Source: an uncultured Pseudokineococcus sp. (GTDB taxonomy: Bacteria > Actinomycetota > Actinomycetes > Actinomycetales > Quadrisphaeraceae). From it: a DNA stretch of 47,850 nt. The stretch spans positions 1 through 47,850 of the forward strand of contig NZ_CANMAA010000022.1 of assembly GCF_947495735.1 (NCBI RefSeq), read 5' to 3'. Below the pieces are notes generated by a model, which saw only the letters and a program-made list of their open reading frames with translations, was not told the origin of the DNA and did not search any database. The position numbers were made by a program, and so were the translations under genes. This document shows positions 27,877 through 41,297 of the stretch, piece by piece (positions within the stretch are counted from its first letter, which is position 1; every line of letters begins with the position of its first letter).

Positions 27877-28839
27877 ATGAGCGTCAGCGAGACGACGCCG
27901 CAGCAGCGGACCGTCCTTGCCGAGCCCCCACCGCAGCAGCAGCGCGCCGCCTCACGCAAGGCCGGCTGGGTCCGCCGCGCCCCCCTCGTGCCGGCGCTGG
28001 TGTTCATCGTCGTCATGACGCAGCTGCCGTTCGCCACGACCATCGTCATCTCGTTCATCAGCTGGAACGCGCTGCGGCCGGACGAGCGCGGCTTCGCCGG
28101 CTTCAGCAACTACGCGCAGGTCTTCACCGACGCGAACCTGCGCTCGTCCGTCGTCACGACCATCGTGCTCACGGTGGTCGTCGTCGGCGTCAGCCTCGTG
28201 CTGGGCCTGCTCATCGCCCTGCTGCTGGACCGCCAGTTCTTCGGCCGCGGCGCCGTGCGCACCCTGATGATCGCGCCGTTCCTCGTCGTGCCGGTCGCCG
28301 CGGCGCTGCTGTGGAAGCACGCGATCCTCAACCCCAGCTACGGGCTCGTCAACGGCGTCCTGACCTGGGTGTGGGGGCTGTTCGGGTCCTCGAGCCCGCC
28401 ACAGGTGGCCTGGCTGACGCAGTACCCGCTGATCTCCATCGAGCTGGCCCTGATCTGGCAGTGGACGCCGTTCATGATGCTGATCCTGCTGGCGGGCCTG
28501 CAGAGCCGGCCGGCCGACGCCTTCGAGGCGGCCAAGATGGACGGCGCCAGCCCCTTCCAGGCGTTCCGGTACATCACGCTGCCGCACCTGCGCCGCTACA
28601 TCGACCTGGGCGCCACGCTCGGGGCGATCTTCATCGTCCAGAACTTCGACGCCGTCTTCACGATGACGTCAGGTGCGCTCGGCACGGCCAACCTGCCGTA
28701 CACGATCTACCAGACGTTCTTCGTGCGGCAGGACTACGGGCTCGCCGCCGCCCAGGGCGTCATCGTCGTGATCGGCACGATCGTCGTCGCCACCTTCGCC
28801 CTGCGCTCGGCCTCGTCGCTCCTGAAGGAGGACAGCTGA
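27877..28839 (+). CDS. ABC transporter permease, first (MalF-like)
   Basis: Membrane subunit of the polyol importer. The 320-residue protein has a long soluble N-terminus (about 1-35), six hydrophobic helices, and the EAA loop that contacts the ATPase: FEAAKMDGASPFQAFRYITLP (about 225-245, given as EAAKMDGAS). The opening helix LVPALVFIVVMTQLPF matches MalF-type permeases. ATG 27877 follows AGGAG. It pairs with the next gene by a one-base stop/start overlap. The substrate is inferred to be mannitol, sorbitol or arabitol from the dehydrogenase downstream. Confidence 0.92.
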   Translation: MSVSETTPQQRTVLAEPPPQQQRAASRKAGWVRRAPLVPALVFIVVMTQLPFATTIVISFISWNALRPDERGFAGFSNYAQVFTDANLRSSVVTTIVLTVVVVGVSLVLGLLIALLLDRQFFGRGAVRTLMIAPFLVVPVAAALLWKHAILNPSYGLVNGVLTWVWGLFGSSSPPQVAWLTQYPLISIELALIWQWTPFMMLILLAGLQSRPADAFEAAKMDGASPFQAFRYITLPHLRRYIDLGATLGAIFIVQNFDAVFTMTSGALGTANLPYTIYQTFFVRQDYGLAAAQGVIVVIGTIVVATFALRSASSLLKEDS

Positions 28840-29732
28840 TGGCTGCCACCGCCCCCTCCACCACGGCCGCCGCGGCCGACGCCGCCCCGCCGCGGCAGAC
28901 CTACCGCAAGCACTCGAAGCTCAACCGACCGAACCCGCTGTGGGGGGTGGCGGCGTGGGCCGTGGGCCTGCTGTTCGCCACCCCGGCGCTGTGGATGGTG
29001 CTGACGTCCCTGCACCGCGAGGTGGACGCCGCGACGAACCCGCCGTCGCTGCTCGCCCCGCTCACCCTCGACGGCTACCGCAGCTTCTTCGGCAGCAGCA
29101 ACGCCTGGCCCGCCCTGATCAACTCGGCGACGGCGTCCGTGGTCTCGACGCTGCTCGTGCTCGCGCTGTCGATCCCGGCGGCGTACGCGCTCTCGATCCG
29201 GCCGGTCAAGCGGTGGTCGGACGTCCTGTTCTTCCTGCTGTCGACCCGCTTCCTGCCGATCGTCGCCGCCGTGCTGCCGCTCTACCTCTTCGCCGTCACG
29301 ACCGGCGCGCTCGACCAGATCGGCCTGCTCATCGCCCTGTACACGGCGATGAACCTGCCGATCGCGGTGTGGATGATGCGCTCGTTCCTCGCCGAGGTGC
29401 CGGTGGAGATGCTCGAGGCGGCGCAGCTGGACGGCGCCGGGCTGATCCGCACGCTGCGCAGCGTCGTCGCCCCGGTGGCGATGCCGGGCATCGCCGCCAC
29501 CGCGCTCATCTGCTTCATCTTCAGCTGGCAGGAGCTGCTCCTCGCGCGGTCCCTGACCGGCGTCGTCGCCGGCACGGCTCCCGTCTTCCTCACGAGCTTC
29601 GTGACGAGCCAGGGGCTCTTCCTGGCCCAGGTCTGCGCGGCCGCGACGGTCGTCTCCCTGCCCGTGCTGATCGCCGGCTTCGCCGCCCAGGACAAGCTCG
29701 TCCAGGGCCTCTCGCTCGGCGCCGTCAAGTGA
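28839..29732 (+). CDS. ABC transporter permease, second (MalG-like)
   Basis: Second membrane subunit, 297 residues, six hydrophobic helices, with the EAA loop MLEAAQLDGAGLIRTLRSV (about 212-230) and the PxxxPIAVWMMRSF block before it. The cytoplasmic N-terminus is Ala/Thr-rich. ATG 28839 overlaps the previous stop (TGATG) and AAGGAGGA lies upstream, so the permeases are made together. No ATP-binding subunit is encoded in the window; in actinobacteria one multitasking ATPase (MsiK type) often serves several sugar importers, which is the likely arrangement here. Confidence 0.92.
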   Translation: MAATAPSTTAAAADAAPPRQTYRKHSKLNRPNPLWGVAAWAVGLLFATPALWMVLTSLHREVDAATNPPSLLAPLTLDGYRSFFGSSNAWPALINSATASVVSTLLVLALSIPAAYALSIRPVKRWSDVLFFLLSTRFLPIVAAVLPLYLFAVTTGALDQIGLLIALYTAMNLPIAVWMMRSFLAEVPVEMLEAAQLDGAGLIRTLRSVVAPVAMPGIAATALICFIFSWQELLLARSLTGVVAGTAPVFLTSFVTSQGLFLAQVCAAATVVSLPVLIAGFAAQDKLVQGLSLGAVK

Positions 29733-29763
29733 CCCGCTCCCGCACCCGCCAGGAGGCCGCTCG

Positions 29764-31269
<1,506 letters not shown>

Positions 31270-31327: not shown

Positions 31328-31347
31328 GGCAAGCGCTCTCCTAGCCT
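31328..31347 (+). promoter_or_regulatory. LacI-type operator and -10 box before the hydroxyacid dehydrogenase gene
   Basis: The imperfect palindrome GGCAAGCGCTCTCC (31328-31341) has the AGCGCT centre of LacI-family sites and directly abuts a TAGCCT -10 box (31342-31347) that is 6 bases from the GTG start. A bound repressor would cover the promoter spacer. It resembles the operator at 35827-35842. Confidence 0.55.
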
Positions 31348-31353
31348 GCGGGC

Positions 31354-32352
31354 GTGCGCATCCTCCTGGCCCTGCCCGAGCCGCTGCCCCGGCGCTTCCT
31401 CACCCCCGCCGCCCGTGAGCGGCTCAGCGCCGTCGGCGAGGTGGACGTCCACCCCACGCCCGAGGACCACCGGTCCCCGGCTGCGGCATCCGCTCTCGCC
31501 CGGGCGGACGTCCTGGTCACCGGCTGGGGCACGGACCTCCTGGACGAGGAGGTCCTCGCCGCAGCGCCGGCTCTGCGCGCCGTCGTGCACAGCGCGGGCT
31601 CGGTCCGGCCCGTCGTCACGCGCGGCGCGGTCGGGCGCGGCCTGCTGGTCTCCAGCCAGGCTCGGCTCAACGCGCTCCCCGTGGCCGAGTACGCGCTCGC
31701 GACCATCCTGCTCTCGCTCAAGGGCGTGCTGCTGGCCCGGAGCCGCTACCGGGAGGCGCGCGGCCCCCTCGACGTGCGGGAGCTGCTGTCGGACCACGGG
31801 GTGCACGCGCGCCGCGTGGGGGTCGTGGGCGCCTCGGTCGTCGGGCGCCGCCTGCTGGAGCTGCTGCGCCCCTTCGACGTCGAGGTCGTCCTCGCGGACC
31901 CGACCCTGGACGCGGAGGAGGCGCGCGAGCTGGGCGCCGAGCTGCTCGACCTCGACGACCTCCTGCGCACGAGCGACGTCGTGAGCCTCCACGCGCCCCT
32001 GCTGCCCTCGACCCGCGGCATGCTCGACGCCCGCCGCCTGGGGCTGCTGCGCGACGGCGCCGCCCTCGTCAACACCGCGCGCGGCGCGCTCGTCGAGGAG
32101 GGCGCGCTCGTCCGCGAGCTCGTCGCCGGTCGCATCTCGGCCGTGCTCGACGTCACGGAGCCGGAGGTGCCGGAGCCGACCTCCCCCCTGTGGGACCTGC
32201 CCGACGTCCTCCTGACGCCGCACGTCGCCGGGGCGCTGGGCAGCGAGCTGCTGCGGCTCGGCGACGGCGCCGTCGAGGAGGTCGAGCGGCTCGCCGCGGG
32301 CCTGCCCCTGCTGCGCCCGGTCACGGCCGAGACCTACGACCGGCTGGCCTGA
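31354..32352 (+). CDS. D-2-hydroxyacid dehydrogenase (hydroxypyruvate/glyoxylate reductase-like)
   Basis: NAD(P)-dependent oxidoreductase interconverting a 2-keto acid and a D-2-hydroxy acid. The 332-residue protein has the catalytic triad of the family: Arg in NTARGALVEEG, Glu in LDVTEPEVPEP and His in TPHVAGAL. The nucleotide motif is RVGVVGASVVGRRLLELL, where the middle glycine of GxGxxG is Ser; the fold should stand but cofactor binding may be altered. With glycerate kinase in the same island, reduction of hydroxypyruvate to D-glycerate is an attractive role, by inference. GTG 31354 is 6 bases after the -10 box, so leaderless translation is likely. An 8-bp hairpin follows. Confidence 0.85.
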   Translation: MRILLALPEPLPRRFLTPAARERLSAVGEVDVHPTPEDHRSPAAASALARADVLVTGWGTDLLDEEVLAAAPALRAVVHSAGSVRPVVTRGAVGRGLLVSSQARLNALPVAEYALATILLSLKGVLLARSRYREARGPLDVRELLSDHGVHARRVGVVGASVVGRRLLELLRPFDVEVVLADPTLDAEEARELGAELLDLDDLLRTSDVVSLHAPLLPSTRGMLDARRLGLLRDGAALVNTARGALVEEGALVRELVAGRISAVLDVTEPEVPEPTSPLWDLPDVLLTPHVAGALGSELLRLGDGAVEEVERLAAGLPLLRPVTAETYDRLA

Positions 32353-32353
32353 C

Positions 32354-32380
32354 CGGCGCCCGCGCGGCCGGAGGGCGCCG
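32354..32380. terminator. Hairpin between convergent genes
   Basis: CGGCGCCC and GGGCGCCG (8 pairs) with an 11-base loop lie between the hydroxyacid dehydrogenase stop and the convergent isomerase gene. Confidence 0.5.
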
Positions 32381-32414
32381 CACCGACGCCGGGTAGGGCT
32401 GGGGCCGCTGGCGC

Positions 32415-33335
32415 TCAGCCCAGGTGGGGCAGGACGAGCTCGCGGTAGCGCTCGACGACGCGCCGCAGCACCTCGTGCCCGTCGGTCGCCCAGACCTCCG
32501 CGTTGAAGACCTCCACCTCGACGTCGCCGGTGTAGCCGGCCTGCGCCACCCAGCGGCTGACGGGGCCGAAGTCCACGACGCCGTCGCCCATGATCCCGCG
32601 GGACAGGAGCGGGTCCTCGGCGATCGGGACGAGGAAGTCGCACACCTGGTAGCTCGCGAGCCGGCCCTCGCGGCCGGCCCGGGCGACGGCCGCCTCCAGC
32701 GCGGGGTCCCACCAGACGTGGAAGGTGTCGACGACGACGGCGACGTCCTCGGCGGGGTGCGGGCCCGCCGCGTCGAGGGCCTGGTCGAGCGTGGAGAGCA
32801 CCGCGCGGTCCGCGCAGTACATGGGGTGCAGGGGCTCGAGCAGCAGCCGGACGCCGTGCTCACGGGCGGTCGGGACGAGCTCGGCCAGGGCGTCGGCCGC
32901 GCGGGCGCGGGCGCCCGCCAGGTCTCGGCTGCCCTCGGGCAGCCCTCCGAGCACCATGACGAGGTCGCGCGTCCCCAGCGTCGCCGCCTCCTCGACGGCG
33001 CGGCGGTTGTCCTCCAGCGCCGCCGCCCGCCCGTCGGCGTCGGCGGCCGTGAGGAACCCGCCGCGGCACAGGCTCGAGACCCGCAGCCCCGCGTCGCGCA
33101 CGAGGCGGGCCGCGCGCTCCAGGCCGGCCTCCTCGACGCGGTCGCGCCAGAGCCCGACGGCGGGCAGGCCCGCCCGCGCGGCGCCGTCGACGGCCTCGGC
33201 GAGGCTCCACCGCTTCGTCGTCGCCGTGTTCAGCGACAGCCGCGCGAGGTCCCCGACGGGTGAGCCCGGCGTCCCGGCCGCCCCCCGCGCGGCCGGGACG
33301 CCGGTCCCCTGCGCGCCCGCGGTCGGGGCGCTCAC
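32415..33335 (-). CDS. Sugar phosphate isomerase/epimerase-like TIM-barrel protein
   Basis: Xylose-isomerase-like TIM barrel of 306 residues, probable metal-dependent isomerase, epimerase or dehydratase of a sugar or keto sugar. Metal-ligand strands are visible: LLLEPLHPMY (Glu), VVVDTFHVWWDP (Asp and His) and VEVEVFNAEVW (final Glu), with SYQVCDF between. The first 30 residues are a low-complexity Ala/Gly stretch; the barrel starts at RLSLNTATTKRWSLAEAV. GTG 33335 shares GTGA with the DUF993 stop, so translation is coupled and the gene is last in the operon that begins at 35724. Confidence 0.88.
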   Translation of the reverse strand: MSAPTAGAQGTGVPAARGAAGTPGSPVGDLARLSLNTATTKRWSLAEAVDGAARAGLPAVGLWRDRVEEAGLERAARLVRDAGLRVSSLCRGGFLTAADADGRAAALEDNRRAVEEAATLGTRDLVMVLGGLPEGSRDLAGARARAADALAELVPTAREHGVRLLLEPLHPMYCADRAVLSTLDQALDAAGPHPAEDVAVVVDTFHVWWDPALEAAVARAGREGRLASYQVCDFLVPIAEDPLLSRGIMGDGVVDFGPVSRWVAQAGYTGDVEVEVFNAEVWATDGHEVLRRVVERYRELVLPHLG

Positions 33336-34570
33336 GCGTCCACCCCCGCGACCGCGAGCAGCGAGCGCATGCGCGTGGCGGCCAGCGCCGGGTCGCGCAG
33401 CAGCCCCGCCTCGTCGGCGAGCACCAGGGTGCGGGCCAGGTGCGGCACCGAGCGGGCCGCGTGCATCCCCCCGACCATCGCGAACGCCGGCTGGTGCCCG
33501 TTGAGCCAGGACAGGAAGGCGATCCCCGTCTTGTAGGAGGACGTCGGGGCCGCGAACACGTGCCGCCCCAGCTCCTGCGTGGACTCGAGCAGGGCCAGGG
33601 CGCGGGCGTCGTCCCCGGCGTCGAGGGCCTGCAGCGCCTCCGAGGCCGCCGGGTAGATCGCGGCGAAGATGCCGAGCAGGGCGTCGGAGCGCCCGCTCTC
33701 GTCGCCGACGACGAGCTCGGGGTAGTTGAAGTCGTCGCCGGTGTACATGCGCACGCCCTCGGGCAGCCGCGCGCGCAGCACCTTCTCGGGCTCGGCGTCC
33801 AGGAGAGACATCTTGATGCCGTCGACCTTGTCCGACCGCGCCGCGATGAGCTCGTGCACGAGGTCCGACGCCGTCGCGACGTCGTCGCTGCCCCAGTAGC
33901 CGGACAGCGCCGGGTCGAACATGGGGCCCAGCCAGTGCAGGACGACGGGCGCCGCGGCCTCCTCGAGGAGCGTCCCGTAGACGTCGAGGTAGTCCTGCGG
34001 GCCCTGCGCCACCCGCGCCAGCGCCCGGGAGGCCATGAGGATGACGGTGGCCCCCGCGCCGGCGACGAGCTCCACCTGCTCGCGGTAGGCGTCGAGGACG
34101 GCGCGGACCCCGGCGCGGCCCGACGGCAGGGACGCCAGGTCGAGCTGGTCGGTGCCGGCGCCGCAGGCGATGAGCCCGCCGACGGAGGCGGCCTCGGCCG
34201 CCGAGCGCCGCACCAGCTCCTGCACGGCGGCCCAGTCCAGGCCGGCGCCGCGCTGAGCGGTGTCCATGGCGTCCGCGACCCCGAGCCCGTGGGACCAGAT
34301 CTCGTGCCGGTACGCCAGCGTCGAGTCCCAGTCGACCGCCGCCGGGGCGCCCGGGACGTTGTCGGCCGTGCCCGGCGGCACCACGTGCGCCGCCGCGTAG
34401 ACGCGGCGCGAGGCGGGCGGGCCGTCCGGCCGGGTCCAGCGCACCGGCTCGCGCAGCTCGTGGCGCACGAGCTCCCCCGCGGCGTCGGGCAGGGCCAGCA
34501 CGACGCCGCTGCCGGCGCGCTCGCCCAGCGGCGCGGCGGTGGCGGTCGTCCGCTCGTCGAGCGCGCTCAC
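33332..34570 (-). CDS. DUF993 protein, class I aldolase-like (DHDPS superfamily)
   Basis: A 412-residue protein of the DUF993 family, uncharacterised. Its core reads like the dihydrodipicolinate-synthase superfamily: VDGIKMSLLDAEPEKV with K233 where the Schiff-base lysine would be, then VRMYTGDDFNYPELVVGD, which parallels the SGDDALTLPLLALG block of those aldolases, and IFAAIYPAAS. The first 65 residues hold an extra beta-rich piece. If active it would cleave or condense a 2-keto acid such as pyruvate or hydroxypyruvate. It lies between a Gfo/Idh dehydrogenase and a TIM-barrel isomerase with coupled starts at both ends (GTGA overlaps), which points to a catabolic aldolase step. Chemistry is inference from motif resemblance. 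Confidence 0.83.
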   Translation of the reverse strand: MSALDERTTATAAPLGERAGSGVVLALPDAAGELVRHELREPVRWTRPDGPPASRRVYAAAHVVPPGTADNVPGAPAAVDWDSTLAYRHEIWSHGLGVADAMDTAQRGAGLDWAAVQELVRRSAAEAASVGGLIACGAGTDQLDLASLPSGRAGVRAVLDAYREQVELVAGAGATVILMASRALARVAQGPQDYLDVYGTLLEEAAAPVVLHWLGPMFDPALSGYWGSDDVATASDLVHELIAARSDKVDGIKMSLLDAEPEKVLRARLPEGVRMYTGDDFNYPELVVGDESGRSDALLGIFAAIYPAASEALQALDAGDDARALALLESTQELGRHVFAAPTSSYKTGIAFLSWLNGHQPAFAMVGGMHAARSVPHLARTLVLADEAGLLRDPALAATRMRSLLAVAGVDA

Positions 34571-35724
34571 AGGACGATCTCCGGCACCTCGAGGCGGCGG
34601 CCCTCCGCCGAGCTGCGCAGGCCGAGCTCGGCCAGCTGGACGCCGCGGGCGGCCGACAGCAGGTCGTAGCGGTGCGGGCGCCCCGCGGCGACGTCGAGGA
34701 GGAACTCCTCCCACTGCCGCTTGAACCCGTTGTCGAGGTCGGCGTTGGCCGGGACGTCGAGCCACTGGTCGCGGAACGGCTCGGTGACGGGGAGGTCCGG
34801 GTTCCACACGGGCATCGGGGTGTGCGAGCGGTGCTGCGCCACGCACCGGTTGAGGCCGGCGACGGCCGAGCCGTGGGTGCCGTCCACCTGGAACTCCACG
34901 AGCTCGTCGCGGTGCACGCGCACGGCCCACGAGGAGTTGATCTGGGCGACGACGCCGCCCTCGAGGTCGAAGATGCCGTAGGCGGCGTCGTCGGCCGTGG
35001 CCGCGTACTCGGCGCCCTGCTCGTCCCAGCGCGTGGGGATGTGGGTGGCCGTCCGCGCCGTCACCGTCTCGACCTTGCCGAGGATCCCCTCGAGCACGTA
35101 GTTCCAGTGGCAGAACATGTCGACGGTGATGCCGCCGCCGTCCTCGGCGCGGTAGTTCCAGCTCGGGCGCTGGGCCGCCTGGCCGTCGCCCTCGAAGACC
35201 CAGTACCCGAACTCCCCCCGCAGGGACAGGATCCGGCCGAAGAAGCCCTCGTCGACGAGGCGGCGCAGCTTGACCAGGCCCGGCAGGTAGAGCTTGTCGT
35301 GCACGACGCCGACGGTGACGCCCGTCGTCATCGCCAGGCGGGCGAGGTCGACCGCCTCGTCCAGCGTCTCGGCGGTCGGCTTCTCCGTGTAGACGTGCTT
35401 GCCGGCCTTCATGGCGGCCGTCAGGGCCGCGGCGCGCCGGGAGGTGACCTGGGCGTCGAAGTAGACGTCGACCGCGGGGTCGGTCACGACGCCGTCGAGG
35501 TCCGTCGTCCAGTGCTCGACGTCGTGGCGCGCGGCCAGCTCGCGCAGCTTGTCCTCGTTGCGCCCCACGAGCACGGGCTCGACCTGCACGCGGCTGCCGT
35601 CGGGGGCGACCACGCCACCGGCCTCGCGGATCGGGAGGATCGAGCGCACGAGGTGCTGGCGGTAGCCCATGCGGCCGGTGACACCGCTCATGGCGATGCG
35701 CAGCGTGCGGTTTCGGGTGGACAT
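34567..35724 (-). CDS. Gfo/Idh/MocA-family sugar dehydrogenase
   Basis: NAD(P)-dependent dehydrogenase of 385 residues. The Rossmann start is IAMSGVTGRMGYRQHLVRSI; its GVTGRMG form is unusual for the family. VYTEKPTAET holds the family's EKP (residues 114-116) and GGGITVDMFCHW supplies Asp202 and His206 of the active site. The C-terminal beta-sheet domain includes WNYRAEDGGG and INSSWAVRVHRDE. Members usually oxidise one hydroxyl of a free or glycosidic sugar or inositol. ATG 35724 follows CCAGGAGG. It heads an operon with DUF993 and the isomerase and has a LacI operator at its promoter. Confidence 0.9.
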   Translation of the reverse strand: MSTRNRTLRIAMSGVTGRMGYRQHLVRSILPIREAGGVVAPDGSRVQVEPVLVGRNEDKLRELAARHDVEHWTTDLDGVVTDPAVDVYFDAQVTSRRAAALTAAMKAGKHVYTEKPTAETLDEAVDLARLAMTTGVTVGVVHDKLYLPGLVKLRRLVDEGFFGRILSLRGEFGYWVFEGDGQAAQRPSWNYRAEDGGGITVDMFCHWNYVLEGILGKVETVTARTATHIPTRWDEQGAEYAATADDAAYGIFDLEGGVVAQINSSWAVRVHRDELVEFQVDGTHGSAVAGLNRCVAQHRSHTPMPVWNPDLPVTEPFRDQWLDVPANADLDNGFKRQWEEFLLDVAAGRPHRYDLLSAARGVQLAELGLRSSAEGRRLEVPEIVL

Positions 35725-35826
35725 CGTTGGCCTCCTGGGACGACGCGCAGTGCTCGCGGCGCCGCCTCCGGCGGCGGCGACCGAGGTGGGTGGGCGGCAC
35801 CGCCCCTGCGGCGGCCCGACGTGCTT

Positions 35827-35872
35827 GGATAGCGCTTTCCTGACTGTAGGCAGCCCGTCGTGGCGCCGTCAA
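35827..35872 (-). promoter_or_regulatory. Promoter with overlapping LacI-family operator
   Basis: On the minus strand: TTGACG (35872-35867), 18-base spacer, TACAGT (35848-35843), then the palindrome GGAAAGCGCTATCC within 35842-35827, where transcription should start. This is the classical place for a LacI-type repressor. It controls the Gfo/Idh operon (leader about 110 bases) and, because the DUF2264-LacI-glycerate kinase operon starts on the other side at 35965, possibly both directions. The remaining bases 35725-35826 and 35873-35964 show no further sites. Confidence 0.75.
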
Positions 35873-35964
35873 GGACGAGTCGCGGCGGACGGGAGCTCGC
35901 GACGGGCGGCCGACGGGGCGTCGTGGCGAGGCGACGCGCAGCGGCACGAGGAGCGGAGGGCGAC

Positions 35965-38031
35965 GTGGACCGAGGGCACGAGCGAGGGGCGGCGAGCCGG
36001 GAGGCCGCCGCGCGGGCCCGCGCGGGGACGGACCTGCCCGCGCCGGACTGGGCGCGCTCGCCGCGCACCGGCTGGGGACGCGAGCACTGGGCGGCCGTGG
36101 CCGACCGCGTGCTGCTCGCCCTGCGACCCTTCGCCACGGCGGACCGGGCGGGTTTCGCGCTCCCCGGCCCGCCGTCGGGCGCGGGCCCGGCGAGCGACGC
36201 GCTGGAGGCGTTCGCCCGCTCCCTGGTGCTCGCGGCGCTGCGCGTCCGCGGGGAGGGCGGCGAGGACCCCCACGGCCTGATGGACTGGTACCGCGAGGGC
36301 CTCGTGGCGGGCACCGACCCGCGGAGCCCCACGCGCTGGCCGCGCCCCGACGAGGTGCCCCAGGCGCGGGTGGAGGCGGCCTCGCTCGCCGTCGCCCTCG
36401 ACCTCTCCCGCCCGTGGCTCCTCGACCGGCTGGCGCCCCGGGAGCACGAGCAGGTGCTCGACTGGTTCCAGACCTGCGTGGGCGCCTGGTACCCCGACAG
36501 CAACTGGGTCTGGTTCCGCACCGTCGTGGAGACGCTCCTCGTGGCCGAGGGGCGCGACGTGCCGCCCGAGGGGCTCGCGGGGACGCTGGCCCTGCACGAG
36601 CAGCTCGCGCGGGCGGACGGCTGGACGTCCGACGGCGGCGAGCGCGCCTTCGACCACTACGGCGACTGGGTGCTGCACCACCACCCGCACCTGTGGGTCG
36701 ACCAGGCCCGCCGCACCGCCCCGCACCTGCTCGAGGCCGCGCGGCTCCCCGACGGCACCGCCGCGGAGGAGGTGTGGCGCCGGCGTCTCGGCCGCTACCT
36801 CGCCGACGTCCTCGCCCTCCAGGGCGCCGACGGGTCCCCGCTGGTGCAGGGACGCAGCCTCGTCTACCGGATGACCGCGGCCTCCCTCTGGACGGGAGCC
36901 GCCACCGGGGCCGGGGACCTCCCGCCGGGCCTCCTGCGACGGGCGGCCACGGGGCAGCTGCAGCACTTCCTGGGCTCCGGCTGCCTCGACGAGCGAGGCC
37001 TGCTGTCCCTCGGCTGGCACGGCGCCTTCCCGGTGATGAAGCAGTCCTACACCGGGCCCGGGTCGACGTACTGGGCGTCGACGGGCTTCTCCGGGCTCGC
37101 GCTGCCCGCCGACCACCCCGCCTGGACCGACGTCGAGGAGCCGCTGCCCGTCGAGGAGGGCGACGTCCGCCGGCTCGTCCGGGCGCCCGGGTGGCTCGTC
37201 AGCGGCACCCGCGCCGACGGCGTCGTCCGCGTCCTCAACCACGGCACCGACCACGCCCTCCCCGGTGACGAGCGCACCGAGGCGCCGCTGTACGCCCGGC
37301 TCGGGTACTCCACGGCCACGGCGCCGCCCCTCACCGGGCCGACCACCACGGCGCCCGTGGACTCCACCGCCGCCCTGCTCGACGCGGCCGGGGCGCCCAG
37401 CCACCGCAGCGGCATGGTCACGGGCGACCTCCTCGACGACGGCGTCGCGCTGCGCGGGAGCTCGTCGGTGCGCGCCCACTGGGTCGACGGCGTCGACCCC
37501 GCGGCGCCCGACCACGCGAGCGGCCTCCCCGGCCGCGTGCGCTGGGGACCCCGGGTCACGACCACCTCGCTGGTCCGCGGCGCCTGGGAGGTGCGCGTCG
37601 TCGCCGTCGCCCCGCGGGGGGCCGACGACGAGCCGGCCCCCGCGCTGCGGGTCGGCGGCTGGCCCGTCGCCGGCCCGGAGGTCCCGGGCGCCGAGGACCG
37701 GACGCCCCCGGGGGGCGCGCAGGGCCGGGCGGCGTCCGCCAGCGCCGGGGGCCTGTCGTCGTCGGTGCACCTGGCGCTCCCCGCGGCGGAGGGCTCCCCG
37801 ACGGGCGCTCGCTGCGGCGTCCACCGCGAGTCCGGCACCTCCCCGCTCGGGGAGCACGTGGCCGTGCCGTGGGTCCAGGTCCCGCTCGACGGGACGGCGG
37901 CGCTCGTCGTGGCCGTGGTGGGGCTGGCGGGAGCGGGCACCTCGGAGGCCCCGCCCGAGATCCGGTCGGACGGGCGGCACCTGGGGGTCCTCTGGGACGG
38001 TGGGGCCCGGTCTTCCCTGGAGGTGCCATGA
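35965..38031 (+). CDS. DUF2264 glycosidase-like protein
   Basis: A 688-residue protein of the DUF2264 family (PF10022). The N-terminal two thirds follow the (alpha/alpha)6-barrel pattern of sugar-active enzymes: SPRTGWGREHWAAVADRVL, GLMDWYREGLVAGTDP, CVGAWYPDSNWVWFRTVV, DGWTSDGGERAFDHYGDWVL and GRSLVYRMTAASLWTGAATG. The last third (about 440-688) is a beta-rich C-terminal domain. Some members are, as far as I recall, grouped with glycoside hydrolases (GH154), but this is not verified. No signal peptide, so it acts on an imported substrate. GTG 35965 follows GGAGGG by 4 bases; a longer frame upstream runs into the promoter. Its stop overlaps the LacI start (ATGA). Confidence 0.85.
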   Translation: MDRGHERGAASREAAARARAGTDLPAPDWARSPRTGWGREHWAAVADRVLLALRPFATADRAGFALPGPPSGAGPASDALEAFARSLVLAALRVRGEGGEDPHGLMDWYREGLVAGTDPRSPTRWPRPDEVPQARVEAASLAVALDLSRPWLLDRLAPREHEQVLDWFQTCVGAWYPDSNWVWFRTVVETLLVAEGRDVPPEGLAGTLALHEQLARADGWTSDGGERAFDHYGDWVLHHHPHLWVDQARRTAPHLLEAARLPDGTAAEEVWRRRLGRYLADVLALQGADGSPLVQGRSLVYRMTAASLWTGAATGAGDLPPGLLRRAATGQLQHFLGSGCLDERGLLSLGWHGAFPVMKQSYTGPGSTYWASTGFSGLALPADHPAWTDVEEPLPVEEGDVRRLVRAPGWLVSGTRADGVVRVLNHGTDHALPGDERTEAPLYARLGYSTATAPPLTGPTTTAPVDSTAALLDAAGAPSHRSGMVTGDLLDDGVALRGSSSVRAHWVDGVDPAAPDHASGLPGRVRWGPRVTTTSLVRGAWEVRVVAVAPRGADDEPAPALRVGGWPVAGPEVPGAEDRTPPGGAQGRAASASAGGLSSSVHLALPAAEGSPTGARCGVHRESGTSPLGEHVAVPWVQVPLDGTAALVVAVVGLAGAGTSEAPPEIRSDGRHLGVLWDGGARSSLEVP

Positions 38032-39152
38032 CCGAGACCCGCACGGCCGCGCCCGGCGACGCCGCCGACGACCCGTCCGCACCTCCGGCCACCCCGGCGT
38101 CGCGCACGGAGCGCGCGGCCGCGGTCACGCTCAGCGACGTCGCGCGCGCCGCCGGCGTCTCGCTGGCGACCGCCTCCCGCGCCGTCAACGGCAGCGCGCG
38201 CAAGGTGCGGCCGGACCTGCACGACCGCGTCCTCGCGGCGGCGGCCTCGCTGGGCTACAGCGCCAACGGCCCCGCCCAGGCCATGGCCCGCGGGCGGACG
38301 AGCGTCGTGGGGCTGGTGGTGCACGACATCGCGGACCCCTACTTCTCCACGATGGCGGCCGGGGTGGTGCGCGCGGCCGAGGAGCGCGGCCTCGTCGTGA
38401 CGATCGGCACGACCGGCCGCGACCCCGTCAAGGAGGCCCAGCACGTGGCCGCGCTGCGCGGCCAGCGCGCCAGCGCCGTCGTCGTCGTCGGGTCGCGGAC
38501 GGGCGAGGCGCCGGTGCAGGCGCGCCTGGCCGAGGAGGTGGCCGCCTTCGAGGCCGCGGGGGGCCGCGCCGTCCTGGTGAGCCAGGAGTCGATCCCGGTG
38601 GACACGGTGGTGCTGCAGAACGAGCGCGGCGCCGGGGACCTGGCGCGGGCGCTGGTCGGGCTCGGCCACCGCCGCTTCGCCGTCCTCGCCGGCCCTCCCG
38701 GCCTGCTCACCGCCCGGGACCGGCTGGCGGGCTTCCGCGCCGGCGCGTCCGCGGCGGGCGCCCAGGTGCAGGACGAGCTCGTCGTCCACGGCGACTTCAC
38801 GCGCGACGGCGGGCACGCCGCGATGCTCAGCCTCCTGGACGCCGGGTTCGCGCGGGGGTGCGTCTTCGCCGTCAACGACGTGATGGCCGTCGGAGCCATG
38901 GCCGCCCTGCGCGAGCGCGGCGTCGACCTGCCCGGGGCCGTGGCCGTGGCCGGCTTCGACGACATCTCCACCCTGCGCGACGTCACCCCCGCGCTCACGA
39001 CGGTGCGACTGCCCCTGCAGGGCATCGGCGAGCAGGCCGTCCACCTCCTGCTCCAGGAGCGCGCCGCGAGCCCGCGCACCGTCCACGTGGACGGCGAGGT
39101 CGTGCTGCGCGCCAGCACGCCCGACCTCACGACCGGCCGGCCCTCCTCGTGA
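38028..39152 (+). CDS. LacI-family transcriptional regulator
   Basis: A 374-residue repressor. After a 30-residue Ala/Pro/Asp tail comes the HTH VTLSDVARAAGVSLATASRAV and hinge block GYSANGPAQAMARGRTSVVG, then a periplasmic-binding-like effector domain with LVVHDIADPYFSTMAAGVVR, VFAVNDVMAVGAMAAL and VAGFDDISTLRDVTPALTTV. Its own operon, the divergent operon and the hydroxyacid dehydrogenase promoter carry AGCGCT-centred palindromes, so local autoregulation with a sugar-derived inducer is likely. ATG 38028 overlaps the DUF2264 stop; the glycerate kinase start overlaps its own stop. Confidence 0.93.
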   Translation: MTETRTAAPGDAADDPSAPPATPASRTERAAAVTLSDVARAAGVSLATASRAVNGSARKVRPDLHDRVLAAAASLGYSANGPAQAMARGRTSVVGLVVHDIADPYFSTMAAGVVRAAEERGLVVTIGTTGRDPVKEAQHVAALRGQRASAVVVVGSRTGEAPVQARLAEEVAAFEAAGGRAVLVSQESIPVDTVVLQNERGAGDLARALVGLGHRRFAVLAGPPGLLTARDRLAGFRAGASAAGAQVQDELVVHGDFTRDGGHAAMLSLLDAGFARGCVFAVNDVMAVGAMAALRERGVDLPGAVAVAGFDDISTLRDVTPALTTVRLPLQGIGEQAVHLLLQERAASPRTVHVDGEVVLRASTPDLTTGRPSS

Positions 39153-40354
39153 GCGCGCGGACCTCCGGAGGCCCCCGCCCCCTGCGCGTCGTCGTGGCCG
39201 TGGACTCCTTCAAGGGCTCGCTGAGCACGCGCGAGGCCGGGGAGGCCGTCGCCGCCGGCGTCCGCGCCGCGGACCCGACCGCCGACGTCGCCGTCGTGCC
39301 GGTCGCCGACGGGGGGGAGGGCACCGCCGAGTGCCTGGCGGACGCCTGGGGGGCGCGCCTGCGCGAGAGCGCCACGACCGACGCCCTCGGCCGGCCCTGC
39401 ACCGCGGCGTGGGCGCTCTCGCCCGACGGGTCGACCGCCGTCGTCGAGATCGCCTCCGCCAGCGGCCTGCCCGGCGTCGCGGACCTCCCGGCGCGCCCTC
39501 GCGAGGCGACGACGCTCGGCACCGGCGCGCTGCTCGTCGAGGCGCTCGACGCCGGTGCGCAGGAGGTCGTGCTGTGCCTGGGCGGCAGCGCGACGACGGA
39601 CGGCGGCGCCGGGCTGCTGGCCGCCCTCGGCGCGCGGTTCCTCGACGACGCGGGCGCCGACCTGCCGCCCGGCGGCGGAGCGCTGGCCCGCCTGGCGCGC
39701 GTCGACCTCTCCGGCCTGCACCCCCGCGCGCGCGGCGTGCGCTGGCGCCTCGCGTGCGACGTGACGAACCCCCTGCTCGGCCCCCGCGGGGCCGCTGCCG
39801 TCTACGGGCCGCAGAAGGGGGCGGACGCCGACGACGTCGCGGCCCTCGACGACGGCCTGGCCCGGCTGGCCCGCGCGCTCGAGGAGGCCACGGGCACCGC
39901 CGTCGCCGACCTCCCGGGCTGCGGGGCCGCCGGGGGCGCCCCCGCCTGCCTCGTGGCGGTCTGCGGGGCGCAGCTGGAGCCCGGCGCACCCCTCGTCCTC
40001 GGGGAGGCCGGTCTGCCGCAGCTCCTCGCACGGGGGGCCGACCTCGTGCTGACCGGGGAGGGCTCCTGCGACGCCCAGTCGCTGCAGGGCAAGGTCGTCG
40101 ACGGGGTGGCCGCCGCCGTGCGCGCCGAGCCCGCCTCCGCCGCAGCGGCTGTCGTCGTCCTGGCCGGGCGCGTCGACGCCCCGGCGGCCGACCTGGCCGC
40201 CGCCGGCGTGCACGCCGCCTTCAGCATCGCGCAGGGGGCCGCGCCGCTGGCCGACCTCCAGCGCGACGCCGCGGAGCTGCTCGCCGACCTCGCCGAGCGC
40301 GTCACGCGGCTGGTCGTCCGCTCCTCGGGGCCGGGTCGGCCGGCGGGGGCCTGA
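39149..40354 (+). CDS. Glycerate kinase (GK type 1)
   Basis: Phosphorylates D-glycerate to 2- or 3-phosphoglycerate with ATP, feeding lower glycolysis. The 401-residue protein has the family landmarks VVVAVDSFKGSLSTREAGEAV, PVADGGEGTAECL, LGTGALLVEALDAG, LGGSATTDGGAGLLAALGAR, CDVTNPLLGPRGAA, YGPQKGAD and TGEGSCDAQSLQGKV. GTG 39149 overlaps the LacI stop (GTGA). Being last in the DUF2264-lacI operon ties the pathway to a three-carbon acid end product. A 25-base hairpin follows. Confidence 0.94.
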   Translation: MSARTSGGPRPLRVVVAVDSFKGSLSTREAGEAVAAGVRAADPTADVAVVPVADGGEGTAECLADAWGARLRESATTDALGRPCTAAWALSPDGSTAVVEIASASGLPGVADLPARPREATTLGTGALLVEALDAGAQEVVLCLGGSATTDGGAGLLAALGARFLDDAGADLPPGGGALARLARVDLSGLHPRARGVRWRLACDVTNPLLGPRGAAAVYGPQKGADADDVAALDDGLARLARALEEATGTAVADLPGCGAAGGAPACLVAVCGAQLEPGAPLVLGEAGLPQLLARGADLVLTGEGSCDAQSLQGKVVDGVAAAVRAEPASAAAAVVVLAGRVDAPAADLAAAGVHAAFSIAQGAAPLADLQRDAAELLADLAERVTRLVVRSSGPGRPAGA

Positions 40355-40505: not shown

Positions 40506-41297
40506 ATGACCCTGCGCACGTCCCCCTGGCCCGCCGGCACGCCCTGCTGGGTCGACGTGACCGCCCGCGACGTGCGGGCCGCGTCGGCCTTCTACGCGGC
40601 CGTCCTGGGCTGGGACGTCTCGGCGCCCGGGGAGGGGTCGGACGAGGAGTACGGCGGCTACGTCATCGCGAGCGCGCGCGGCGCCGCGGCGGCCGGCATC
40701 GGGCCGCGCACCCAGCCCGACTCCCCGAGCGCCTGGACCCTGTACCTGGCCACCGACGACGTCGAGGCCACCGCCGCGGCCGTCCCCGAGCACGGCGGCG
40801 TGGTCCTCCTGCCCCCGGGCGACGTCGGCCCCCTCGGCCGGATGGCGGTCGCCGCCGACCCCGCGGGAGCCGTCTTCGCCCTGTGGGAGGCGGGCACCCA
40901 CCTCGGCTGCGGCGTCGTCGACGAGCCCGGCGGCCTCGTCTGGGAGGACCTGCGCTCCCCCGCCCCGGACATCGCGCGCGCCTTCTACGCCGGCCTCTTC
41001 GGCTACAGCACCGAGGGCGTGGACATGGCGCCGGAGGACTACACGACCTTCGCGCTGCCGGCGGGCGCCCCCCTCGGGGGGATCGGCGGGATGATGGGCG
41101 AGGACTCCCCGCCGCACTGGCTCGTCTACTTCGGCGTGCCGGACGCCGACGCGGCCGCCGCCGCGGCCGAGCGCTCGGGCGGGCGCGTGCTCTCCCCCGC
41201 GGTGGACACCCCGTTCGGCCGGATGGTCGTGCTCGCCGACCCCGACGGCGCCGCCTTCACCGCGATGACCCTCCCCGACGAGCCCGTCGAGGGCTGA
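40506..41297 (+). CDS. VOC-family protein with two glyoxalase-like domains
   Basis: A 263-residue protein made of two tandem VOC domains (about 10-125 and 135-258). Each begins with the family's xWxDLxxxDxxxAxxFY pattern: PCWVDVTARDVRAASAFYAA and VWEDLRSPAPDIARAFYAGL, and each ends GRMAVAADPAGAVFALWE or GRMVVLADPDGAAFTAM. This two-domain type resembles actinobacterial proteins once called hydroxylases or glyoxalase/bleomycin-resistance-like; reaction unknown. The metal ligands are not obvious in both halves. ATG 40506 is the natural start. A GC-rich inverted repeat (about 41300-41338) separates it from the convergent next gene. Confidence 0.87.
   Translation: MTLRTSPWPAGTPCWVDVTARDVRAASAFYAAVLGWDVSAPGEGSDEEYGGYVIASARGAAAAGIGPRTQPDSPSAWTLYLATDDVEATAAAVPEHGGVVLLPPGDVGPLGRMAVAADPAGAVFALWEAGTHLGCGVVDEPGGLVWEDLRSPAPDIARAFYAGLFGYSTEGVDMAPEDYTTFALPAGAPLGGIGGMMGEDSPPHWLVYFGVPDADAAAAAAERSGGRVLSPAVDTPFGRMVVLADPDGAAFTAMTLPDEPVEG

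Follow-up and report, generated by a model that had tools for sequence, protein, structure and literature searches.

Described routes of hexuronate and glucarate catabolism run through UxaC/UxaB and GarL/GarR/GarK, the glucarate route ending in a glycerate kinase, and we know of no described variant of these routes that includes DUF993 (PF06187), a widespread family whose structure is solved, yet whose function we did not find in the literature searched. The solved close relatives of the three enzymes considered here are S. meliloti SMc04132 (4dnh) for DUF993, SMc04130 (3ju2) for an AP_endonuc_2 xylose-isomerase-like triosephosphate isomerase (TIM) barrel, and 3oqb for a Gfo/Idh/MocA oxidoreductase, which are deposited as an uncharacterised protein, SMc04130 and "oxidoreductase". 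Literature searches by the name DUF993 found nothing, and those by the S. meliloti locus tags, the PDB codes, the Pfam and InterPro accessions and the plasmid pAO1 found nothing on function. Genes for these three proteins stand side by side in a seven-gene island of a 47,850-nucleotide stretch of DNA from an uncultured Pseudokineococcus sp. (contig NZ_CANMAA010000022.1; the whole stretch is hereafter called the window). The trio Gfo/Idh–DUF993–barrel is the core of a LacI-controlled cassette, and this cassette appears to be an undescribed variant of the oxidise–isomerise–cleave type of sugar catabolic operon. The overall best explanation of the data, in which we place middling confidence, is that the core leads to a glycerate/phosphoglycerate end, with DUF2264 as an optional addition.

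The island consists of two divergent operons, Gfo/Idh–DUF993–barrel and DUF2264–LacI–glycerate kinase, together with one D-2-hydroxyacid dehydrogenase (2HADH) gene, and each of the four intra-operon junctions is a 4-base overlap of the ATGA or GTGA type. This is the gene content that the initial annotation, made from the sequence alone, had described, and it is borne out by the open reading frames (ORFs) and by Pfam and NCBIfam scans. The core genes lie on the minus strand, at 34567..35724 (Gfo/Idh, by Pfam), 33332..34570 (DUF993, Pfam E = 3.9e-174) and 32415..33335 (barrel, Pfam E = 1.6e-35). Within the window's class, 120 of 394 genomes have DUF993, as do 17 of 59 genomes of a set of relatives (the source genome being counted in each), and none of 14 control genomes has it. 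From the class sample we took 87 loci, namely the DUF993-positive ones minus the window and minus 32 genomes of genus g58, with family labels assigned by hand from the DUF993 genome listing and with neighbours scored by tblastn using chosen queries, a procedure that sees the genes of the query set. Of these loci, 83 have Gfo/Idh no more than 2.5 kb from DUF993, 82 have Gfo/Idh and the barrel both inside that distance, and all 87 have a barrel within 10 kb. The five exceptions are three loci with DUF993 at a contig end (L154, L186 and L203) and two in which the missing partner is a few kb away (L187 and L202).

Among the best 80 of 589 relatives, the same core order recurs in Arthrobacter, Nocardioides, Rhodococcus, Nocardia, Mycolicibacterium and Streptomyces and, beyond Actinomycetota, in Thermosporothrix (L094) and a metagenome-assembled genome of Gemmatimonadetes (L103). 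Plasmid records with DUF993 number 147, and Sinorhizobium or Rhizobium account for 88 of these. We opened 11 plasmid loci, hand-picked from 40 listed. In six of them the module includes Gfo/Idh as well as the barrel (L116, where one further gene intervenes, L118, L119, L120, L123 and L125), and the remainder have the barrel only (L117 and L121), Gfo/Idh only (L124) or neither in an adjacent position (L122 and L126). Several alphaproteobacterial loci differ from the island in having TetR regulators and enolase-superfamily partners. The pAO1 locus of Paenarthrobacter nicotinovorans (L124, 64126-70743) resembles the island in its row of Gfo/Idh, DUF993 and glycerate kinase, but has no adjacent barrel and carries a GMC oxidoreductase and an aldehyde dehydrogenase upstream; pAO1 is the nicotine plasmid, and a sugar assignment for this cluster has been published. 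In two genomes the DUF993 match falls into pieces (G017:C1:379764-380957 and G422:C1:750924-752067), which are possibly broken genes or assembly errors.

Control by a LacI-type repressor is indicated by both the regulator gene and its putative binding sites. The window encodes a LacI-family repressor (38028..39152, plus strand; Pfam and NCBIfam), and 80 of the 87 loci have a LacI-family gene at most 10 kb from DUF993. A search of the 300 bp before Gfo/Idh in 85 loci, counting the window, finds a 14-mer operator consensus, GGAAAGCGCTTTCC, in 72 of them at up to two mismatches and in 63 at up to one, compared to a background of 2.7% of 1,700 random stretches from the same loci at two mismatches; we note that the consensus was derived largely from the same upstream regions later scored, so that the match is somewhat inflated. 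At least one locus within two mismatches is found in 11 of the 15 families in this set, while family f37 has the operator with three mismatches in all three of its loci, and no operator was found upstream of Gfo/Idh in f45 (five loci), f47 (one) and f58 (one). In the window, the sites are GGATAGCGCTTTCC in the divergent promoter region (35827..35840, plus strand), assigned by its match to the consensus and by conservation, and GGCAAGCGCTCTCC (31328..31341, plus strand), 12 bases 5' of the 2HADH start and with two mismatches to the consensus. The AGCGCT-centred palindromes that the initial annotation had placed at two promoters therefore stand as conserved 14-mer sites, whereas the AGCGCT hexamer as such occurs in the window no more often than expected (10 times vs an expected 18.9). 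Taken alone, the window also gives no significant excess of the 14-mer at up to three mismatches (2 seen vs 0.83 expected, with 23 of 100 shuffles reaching 2). In the source genome, seven places lie within two mismatches, compared to two for a reversed-pattern control, and the window sites at 31328 and 35827 are two of these seven. We regard the window sites as real, if putative, operators because the 14-mer is conserved upstream of Gfo/Idh across loci. A LacI helix-turn-helix and a conserved palindromic operator at the target promoters, with putative binding, are thus both present, as expected of LacI-family regulation.

The recognition helix of the window's LacI, SLATASR, recurs in the LacI proteins of L178 and L182, and 15 of 18 other genomes searched have operator sites at up to one mismatch. 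One of them (G193, containing L182) has two operators before Gfo/Idh and one between DUF2264 and 2HADH, and another (G234, L253) has an operator beside a 2HADH homologue on another contig. Many of the sites in the 33 regions fetched adjoin genes of no assigned identity; such sites (among them L245-L247, L250-L252, L256, L257, L259, L260 and L262-L265) were not counted as evidence, and could be the targets of other regulators. An aldehyde-dehydrogenase-like gene stands beside the L259 site. A barrel homologue (47%) with an operator at its 5' end is found at about position 5000 of L238 (G057:C2:3338100-3348100), more than 2 Mb away from the DUF993 locus of that genome, which shows no adjacent barrel.

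The DUF993 protein of the island matches PF06187 over its full length (positions 1-382 of 382; 579.5 bits against a cut-off of 24), and its AlphaFold model, built from 12 sequences, has a pLDDT of 87.0 and a pTM of 0.87. A Foldseek search with this model places 4dnh first, at a TM of 0.93, followed by entries of the dihydrodipicolinate synthase (DHDPS) family at a probability of 1.00 (TM by target of 0.63-0.83 in rows 2-50; 3na8 at E = 2.6e-9). A sequence search of the PDB gave 4dnh alone (E = 7.6e-121; next match E 0.78), and there is no Pfam DHDPS match at E 0.001. A local hhalign profile alignment to eight DHDPS sequences, those of 20 loci that passed a motif filter, is weak (probability 10.8%, E = 0.0029), and pairs the GIK lysine, K253, with the DHDPS lysine, along with a GDD stretch. 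This lysine is invariant in all 34 DUF993 sequences compared (the window and 33 of 34 loci chosen by hand), as are D103, T104, Q106, R107, S181, R182, H212, W213 and others. Taken together, the model and the alignment support DUF993 being a class I aldolase-like barrel with K253 as the predicted Schiff-base lysine, in agreement with the class proposed in the initial annotation. The lysine had there been numbered K233; counting from the GTG at 34570, residue 233 is a Thr, and the GIK lysine, which does lie inside a DHDPS-like barrel, is residue 253.

In DHDPS, GTTGE forms the carboxylate loop and a Pro-Tyr-Tyr motif holds the catalytic Tyr; both motifs are visible in the DHDPS side of the alignment. 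Following the mapping from the weak alignment, neither has a counterpart in DUF993, which has MDTAQR and MASR instead, and both of these stretches are nearly invariant in the 34 sequences. DUF993 therefore resembles the DHDPS/N-acetylneuraminate lyase class I aldolases in fold and lysine position, and differs from them in being about 100 residues longer and in the absence of the pyruvate-site motifs. We infer that its ketone is not pyruvate-like, and, with these motifs lacking, did not assign it to the DHDPS-type pyruvate enzymes. It could nevertheless be an ordinary DHDPS-family 2-keto-3-deoxy acid aldolase or dehydratase, acting for example on 5-keto-4-deoxyglucarate to give pyruvate and tartronate semialdehyde. 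This would account for the shared fold and aligned lysine, as well as for the enolase-superfamily genes beside DUF993 in L116, L119 and L125 (MR_MLE_C being confirmed for L116), and a glycerate kinase partner fits a glucarate route. We consider it unlikely, given the missing motifs and their nearly invariant replacements, and given that no acid-sugar dehydratase is annotated beside the module in the scanned actinobacterial loci, although most neighbours there are unscanned. The island differs from the glucarate route in that Pfam and NCBIfam place no GarL- or GarR-type gene among its genes.

In the mechanism that we propose, Gfo/Idh would take a sugar, a sugar acid or a glycoside and oxidise one of its hydroxyls to a ketone, the barrel would isomerise or epimerise the keto intermediate, and DUF993 would cleave a C–C bond via a Schiff base between Lys253 and a non-pyruvate-like ketone. 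The C3 piece, tartronate semialdehyde or hydroxypyruvate, would then be converted to D-glycerate, here by 2HADH, and glycerate kinase would yield phosphoglycerate, with an optional upstream step by DUF2264, probably a uronosyl dehydratase. A set order of reactions beginning with cleavage by DUF2264, as in the initial annotation, is not supported. For the barrel, the PDB relatives are 7vpf, 3ju2 (SMc04130) and 3qc0, and for Gfo/Idh the match is 3oqb (E = 9e-139). When Gfo/Idh is compared with equivalogs of known substrate (levoglucosan, inositol and others), the best, NF052479, gives 70.8 bits against a cut-off of 650.

Two alternatives draw in part on these oxidoreductase similarities. Pairs of Gfo/Idh and AP_endonuc_2 proteins act in 3-keto glycoside routes, and glycerate could likewise originate from an aglycone, with Gfo/Idh forming a 3-keto glycoside, the barrel eliminating glycerate (as in glucosylglycerate) and DUF993 acting on the sugar half. 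Gfo/Idh is indeed weakly similar to DgpA and levoglucosan dehydrogenase, but it falls far under the cut-offs of the characterised dehydrogenase families, and such a route would leave 2HADH without a job, so that we find it very doubtful. The module could also degrade a cyclitol, with Gfo/Idh as an inositol-type dehydrogenase, the barrel as an inosose dehydratase or epimerase and DUF993 as a ring-fragment aldolase. This would be in line with the weak match of Gfo/Idh to inositol dehydrogenase TIGR04380, with the iol genes that follow the module in L140 (IolB over its cut-off, IolG and IolE as best matches under theirs), and with KduI/IolB-family genes some 5-10 kb from DUF993 in G144, G176 and G234. 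All four of these genomes, however, come from a single family, f38, and where a locus already has iol genes of its own, inositol itself would need no further module; the cyclitol route is accordingly one that we rate as quite improbable.

We return to the preferred glycerate-yielding route, for which the kinase genes provide the best evidence. The glycerate kinase of the island (39149..40354, plus strand; PF02595 by Pfam, TIGR00045 by NCBIfam) scores 374.7 bits against the TIGR00045 cut-off of 168.45, without reaching the NCBIfam equivalogs for the 2- or 3-kinase. Besides the window (family f1), 11 of the 87 loci have a PF02595 kinase no further than 10 kb from DUF993, and they are distributed over f19 (five), f45 (three), f22 (two) and f47 (one), whereas our own estimate, from one or two kinases per genome of about 6 Mb, would put the chance expectation at about 0.4 of 87. 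Among 96 loci scanned, it is also seen at L022, L026, L031, L047, L052 and L056, of which L031 is already among the 11, and L022 and L026 are in the window's genus. The kinase stands behind LacI in the window, L052, L152, L160, L193, L195 and L196, behind the barrel in L056, L118, L164 and L171, and behind DUF993 in L124. Four of the 11 opened plasmid loci have a glycerate kinase, which belongs to PF02595 in pAO1 (L124) and Glaciihabitans (L118), while in the alphaproteobacterial Paracoccus (L120) and Peteryoungia (L126) loci it is a DUF4147/MOFRL protein annotated as glycerate kinase, from a Pfam family different from PF02595. Furthermore, in G035 the PF02595 gene is on a separate contig, with an operator 33 bp before its profile match. 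Since two kinase families have been recruited in different positions, the route probably ends in glycerate and, via the kinase, in phosphoglycerate. The phosphoglycerate end suggested in the initial annotation is thus supported by a kinase that recurs in several lineages and from two families, and is not matched by the majority of loci, as discussed below. The 2HADH gene (31354..32352, plus strand; ORF, Pfam and NCBIfam) reaches no NCBIfam equivalog cut-off, and would encode the enzyme that reduces the C3 2-oxo acid or semialdehyde to glycerate; homologues lie near the module in L022, L026 and L034 among the 96 loci, and in L178 and L182, that is, 2/87 of the class set.

DUF2264 (PF10022; the former GH154) is encoded at 35860..38031 on the plus strand (Pfam E = 4.2e-87; 292.9 bits, cut-off 25), and some 300 aa at its C-terminal end lie beyond the Pfam match. 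A GTG at 35965, preceded by GGAGG five bases before it, is an alternative start, and may be the true one instead of 35860. The closest solved relatives are 8oi4 (deposited as a beta-galactosidase), 9o4u and 9nwf (glucuronate dehydratase), with E values from 6.7e-14 to 5.6e-18; the protein is thus of the same family as BcGDH (PMC12269599; 9o4u, 9nwf) and 8oi4, at remote similarity. The former GH154 family has been proposed to consist of uronate dehydratases (PMC12269599), and the same paper cites beta-glucuronidase and beta-galactosidase as earlier activities of other members. In an alignment that leaves E74 and R78 of BcGDH uncovered, window residues Y267, R332, Y336 and Y397 (numbered from 35860) correspond to BcGDH Y229, R285, Y289 and Y354, and N215, W216 and F219 to N177, W178 and F181, while BcGDH N176 is Ser214 here. 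The catalytic Tyr pair and Arg of BcGDH, in the roles given in PMC12269599, are therefore kept as Y267, Y336 and R332, which makes a uronosyl dehydratase the likely assignment, rather than the glycosidase of the initial annotation; the naming of GH154 among beta-galactosidase families (PMC11739564) speaks against the dehydratase assignment. A literature search by the name DUF2264 returned nothing on function.

Near DUF993, DUF2264 is found in the window, in G001 (L026) of the same genus, in Glaciihabitans sp. INWT7 (L118) and in G193 (L182), the last being the one case in the 87-locus class set. L118, on a plasmid, has DUF2264 divergent from a row of Gfo/Idh–DUF993–barrel–glycerate kinase, such that L118 and L026 show the joint occurrence of DUF993, DUF2264 and glycerate kinase elsewhere. 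With the lysine also placed inside a DHDPS-like barrel, neither of the two outcomes that the initial annotation had named as refuting it was observed. In G003, of the same genus, the Gfo/Idh and LacI matches are 288 bp apart and the 19.5 kb locus has no DUF2264 match, and because of this syntenic locus we rejected DUF2264 as a core member. At the level of whole genomes, DUF993 is present in 59 of 63 genomes with DUF2264, compared to 61 of 331 others, an association that survives stratification by five families (p ~1e-4, from within-family tables counted by hand, leaving out genomes without a listed family label), although f37 is the only family significant by itself. The operator beside DUF2264 in G193 adds a second family in which the two are linked. 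These data bear on whether DUF2264, 2HADH and glycerate kinase are simply passengers, with the three core genes cooperating alone towards a product unrelated to glycerate. The frequencies near the module (DUF2264 in 1/87, 2HADH in 2/87, PF02595 in 11/87) would suit this, the core alone being the rule, and the genome-wide co-occurrence, the attachment of two unrelated kinase families in different positions, and the operators at the distant glycerate kinase of G035 and between DUF2264 and 2HADH in G193 would not; we judge it distinctly improbable.

As to the substrate of the proposed route, the best-supported guess is a plant glycan that contains uronate, for example rhamnogalacturonan I, and a pectin- or uronate-derived compound is favoured because of links to rhamnogalacturonan, rhamnose and uronate genes. 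Of the seven operator-like sites in the source genome, two (one mismatch each) are at a locus encoding a PL11 rhamnogalacturonan lyase, rhamnose isomerase, an aldolase and the binding protein of a sugar ABC transporter, and one (two mismatches) lies at the junction of GH106 and a sugar-binding protein gene; this binding protein is followed by a DUF6807-type Gfo/Idh, a Gfo/Idh and UxaC, and a GH78 is nearby. The UxaC gene, as a member of the row that follows this site, is a likeness to the hexuronate route. The last two sites have a CCGC centre and lie on contig C3 and, before a Gfo/Idh gene, on contig C5. In the fetched regions, the operator is found at PL11 in L241, L258 and L261, at relatives of the DUF6807-type Gfo/Idh in L248 and L249, and at the barrel homologue of L238. 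DUF993 is present in 47 of 56 genomes with PL11 and in 73 of 338 others (stratified p ~0.002), and PL11 lies within 21 kb of DUF993 in five of the 47 genomes having both (G019, G048, G051, G240 and G329). Next to the module in L021, L027, L028, L053 and L056 stand genes of rhamnose type, a naming that we based on sequence clusters; L053 is the only one of these loci given a family scan, which returned rhaM and a weak AP_endonuc_2 match. L178 has a beta-glucuronidase over the NCBIfam cut-off.

Based on these links, a more specific version of the route can be drawn, in which DUF993 would cleave an unphosphorylated ketohexuronate of the tagaturonate or fructuronate type to dihydroxyacetone and tartronate semialdehyde, skipping the reductase, dehydratase and 2-keto-3-deoxygluconate steps, while the barrel would epimerise the ketouronate, and 2HADH and the kinase would complete a pectin/uronate route. 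Such detail is distinctly unlikely to be right in full; if it were, a new pectin/uronate route to phosphoglycerate would extend over Proteobacteria as well as Actinomycetota, and a Thermosporothrix (Chloroflexota) and a Gemmatimonadetes genome would have relatives of it. The glycerate end point and the short list of substrates are both testable, and would give functions to DUF993 and, in the context of this cassette, DUF2264. The L-glucose/L-galactose paper (PMC12632266) mentions neither "dihydrodipicolinate" nor "glycerate".

A number of observations weigh against the glycerate-ending route and its uronate substrate. On the side of the end product, a PF02595 kinase is missing from the 10 kb on either side of DUF993 in 76 of the 87 loci, 351 of the 394 genomes carry PF02595 regardless, and the kinase-linked loci L152, L160, L171 and L188 belong to f45 and f47, families without an operator upstream of Gfo/Idh. 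We know of no activity or phenotype for DUF993. In the source genome (assembly 96.7% complete) the search gave no GH88/GH105 (PF07470) match that could use an unsaturated uronoside made by DUF2264, PF07470 being found in 6 of 19 genomes searched at E<=0.001, four of them over the cut-off. The LacI of the rhamnogalacturonan locus has the recognition helix SVGTVSN, as opposed to SLATASR in the island, and the sites at that locus may belong to its own LacI. Family f38 runs in the opposite direction, with DUF993 in neither of its two PL11 genomes and in 18 of its 19 others. A single substrate is further called into question by the inositol operon downstream of the module in L140, by NMT1-type ABC transporters near the module in 9 of 87 loci, and by CoA-transferase genes near DUF993 in L117, L118, L121 and L122, joined by an enoyl-CoA hydratase in L118, L121 and L122. 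With neighbours that vary by lineage in this way, the substrate may differ between lineages, or the neighbours may mislead.

Some further features of these loci are worth recording. The rhamnogalacturonan utilisation region of the source genome spans L214 (G000:C1:134000-153900) and L215 (G000:C1:154000-173900), and comprises two PL11 genes, rhamnose isomerase, a class II aldolase/short-chain dehydrogenase fusion, GH106, GH78, UxaC, two Gfo/Idh genes (one with DUF6807), sugar ABC genes, its own LacI and the operator-like sites. LacI adjoins an NMT1/THI5-type ABC transporter, an unusual kind for a sugar, in all six f22 loci (L132, L139, L144, L150, L161 and L164) and in Rhodococcus L042. SMc04132, SMc04133 and SMc04135 appear in a table of PhaR-regulated genes of S. 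meliloti. Directly upstream of the island, window positions 28311-31269 hold two genes, one for an ABC transporter permease and one for a protein like mannitol 2-dehydrogenase, which probably form a separate polyol operon. The latter (29764-31269) was considered as the uronate reductase of the pathway, and was rejected because fructuronate reductase, its top-ranking NCBIfam family, scores far under the cut-off and the best solved match is the mannitol dehydrogenase 1lj8 (E = 3.1e-142). On the other side of the island, at 40506-41297, the window encodes a two-domain glyoxalase-like protein that, at a score under the NCBIfam cut-off, resembles the AfsK-binding protein KbpA.

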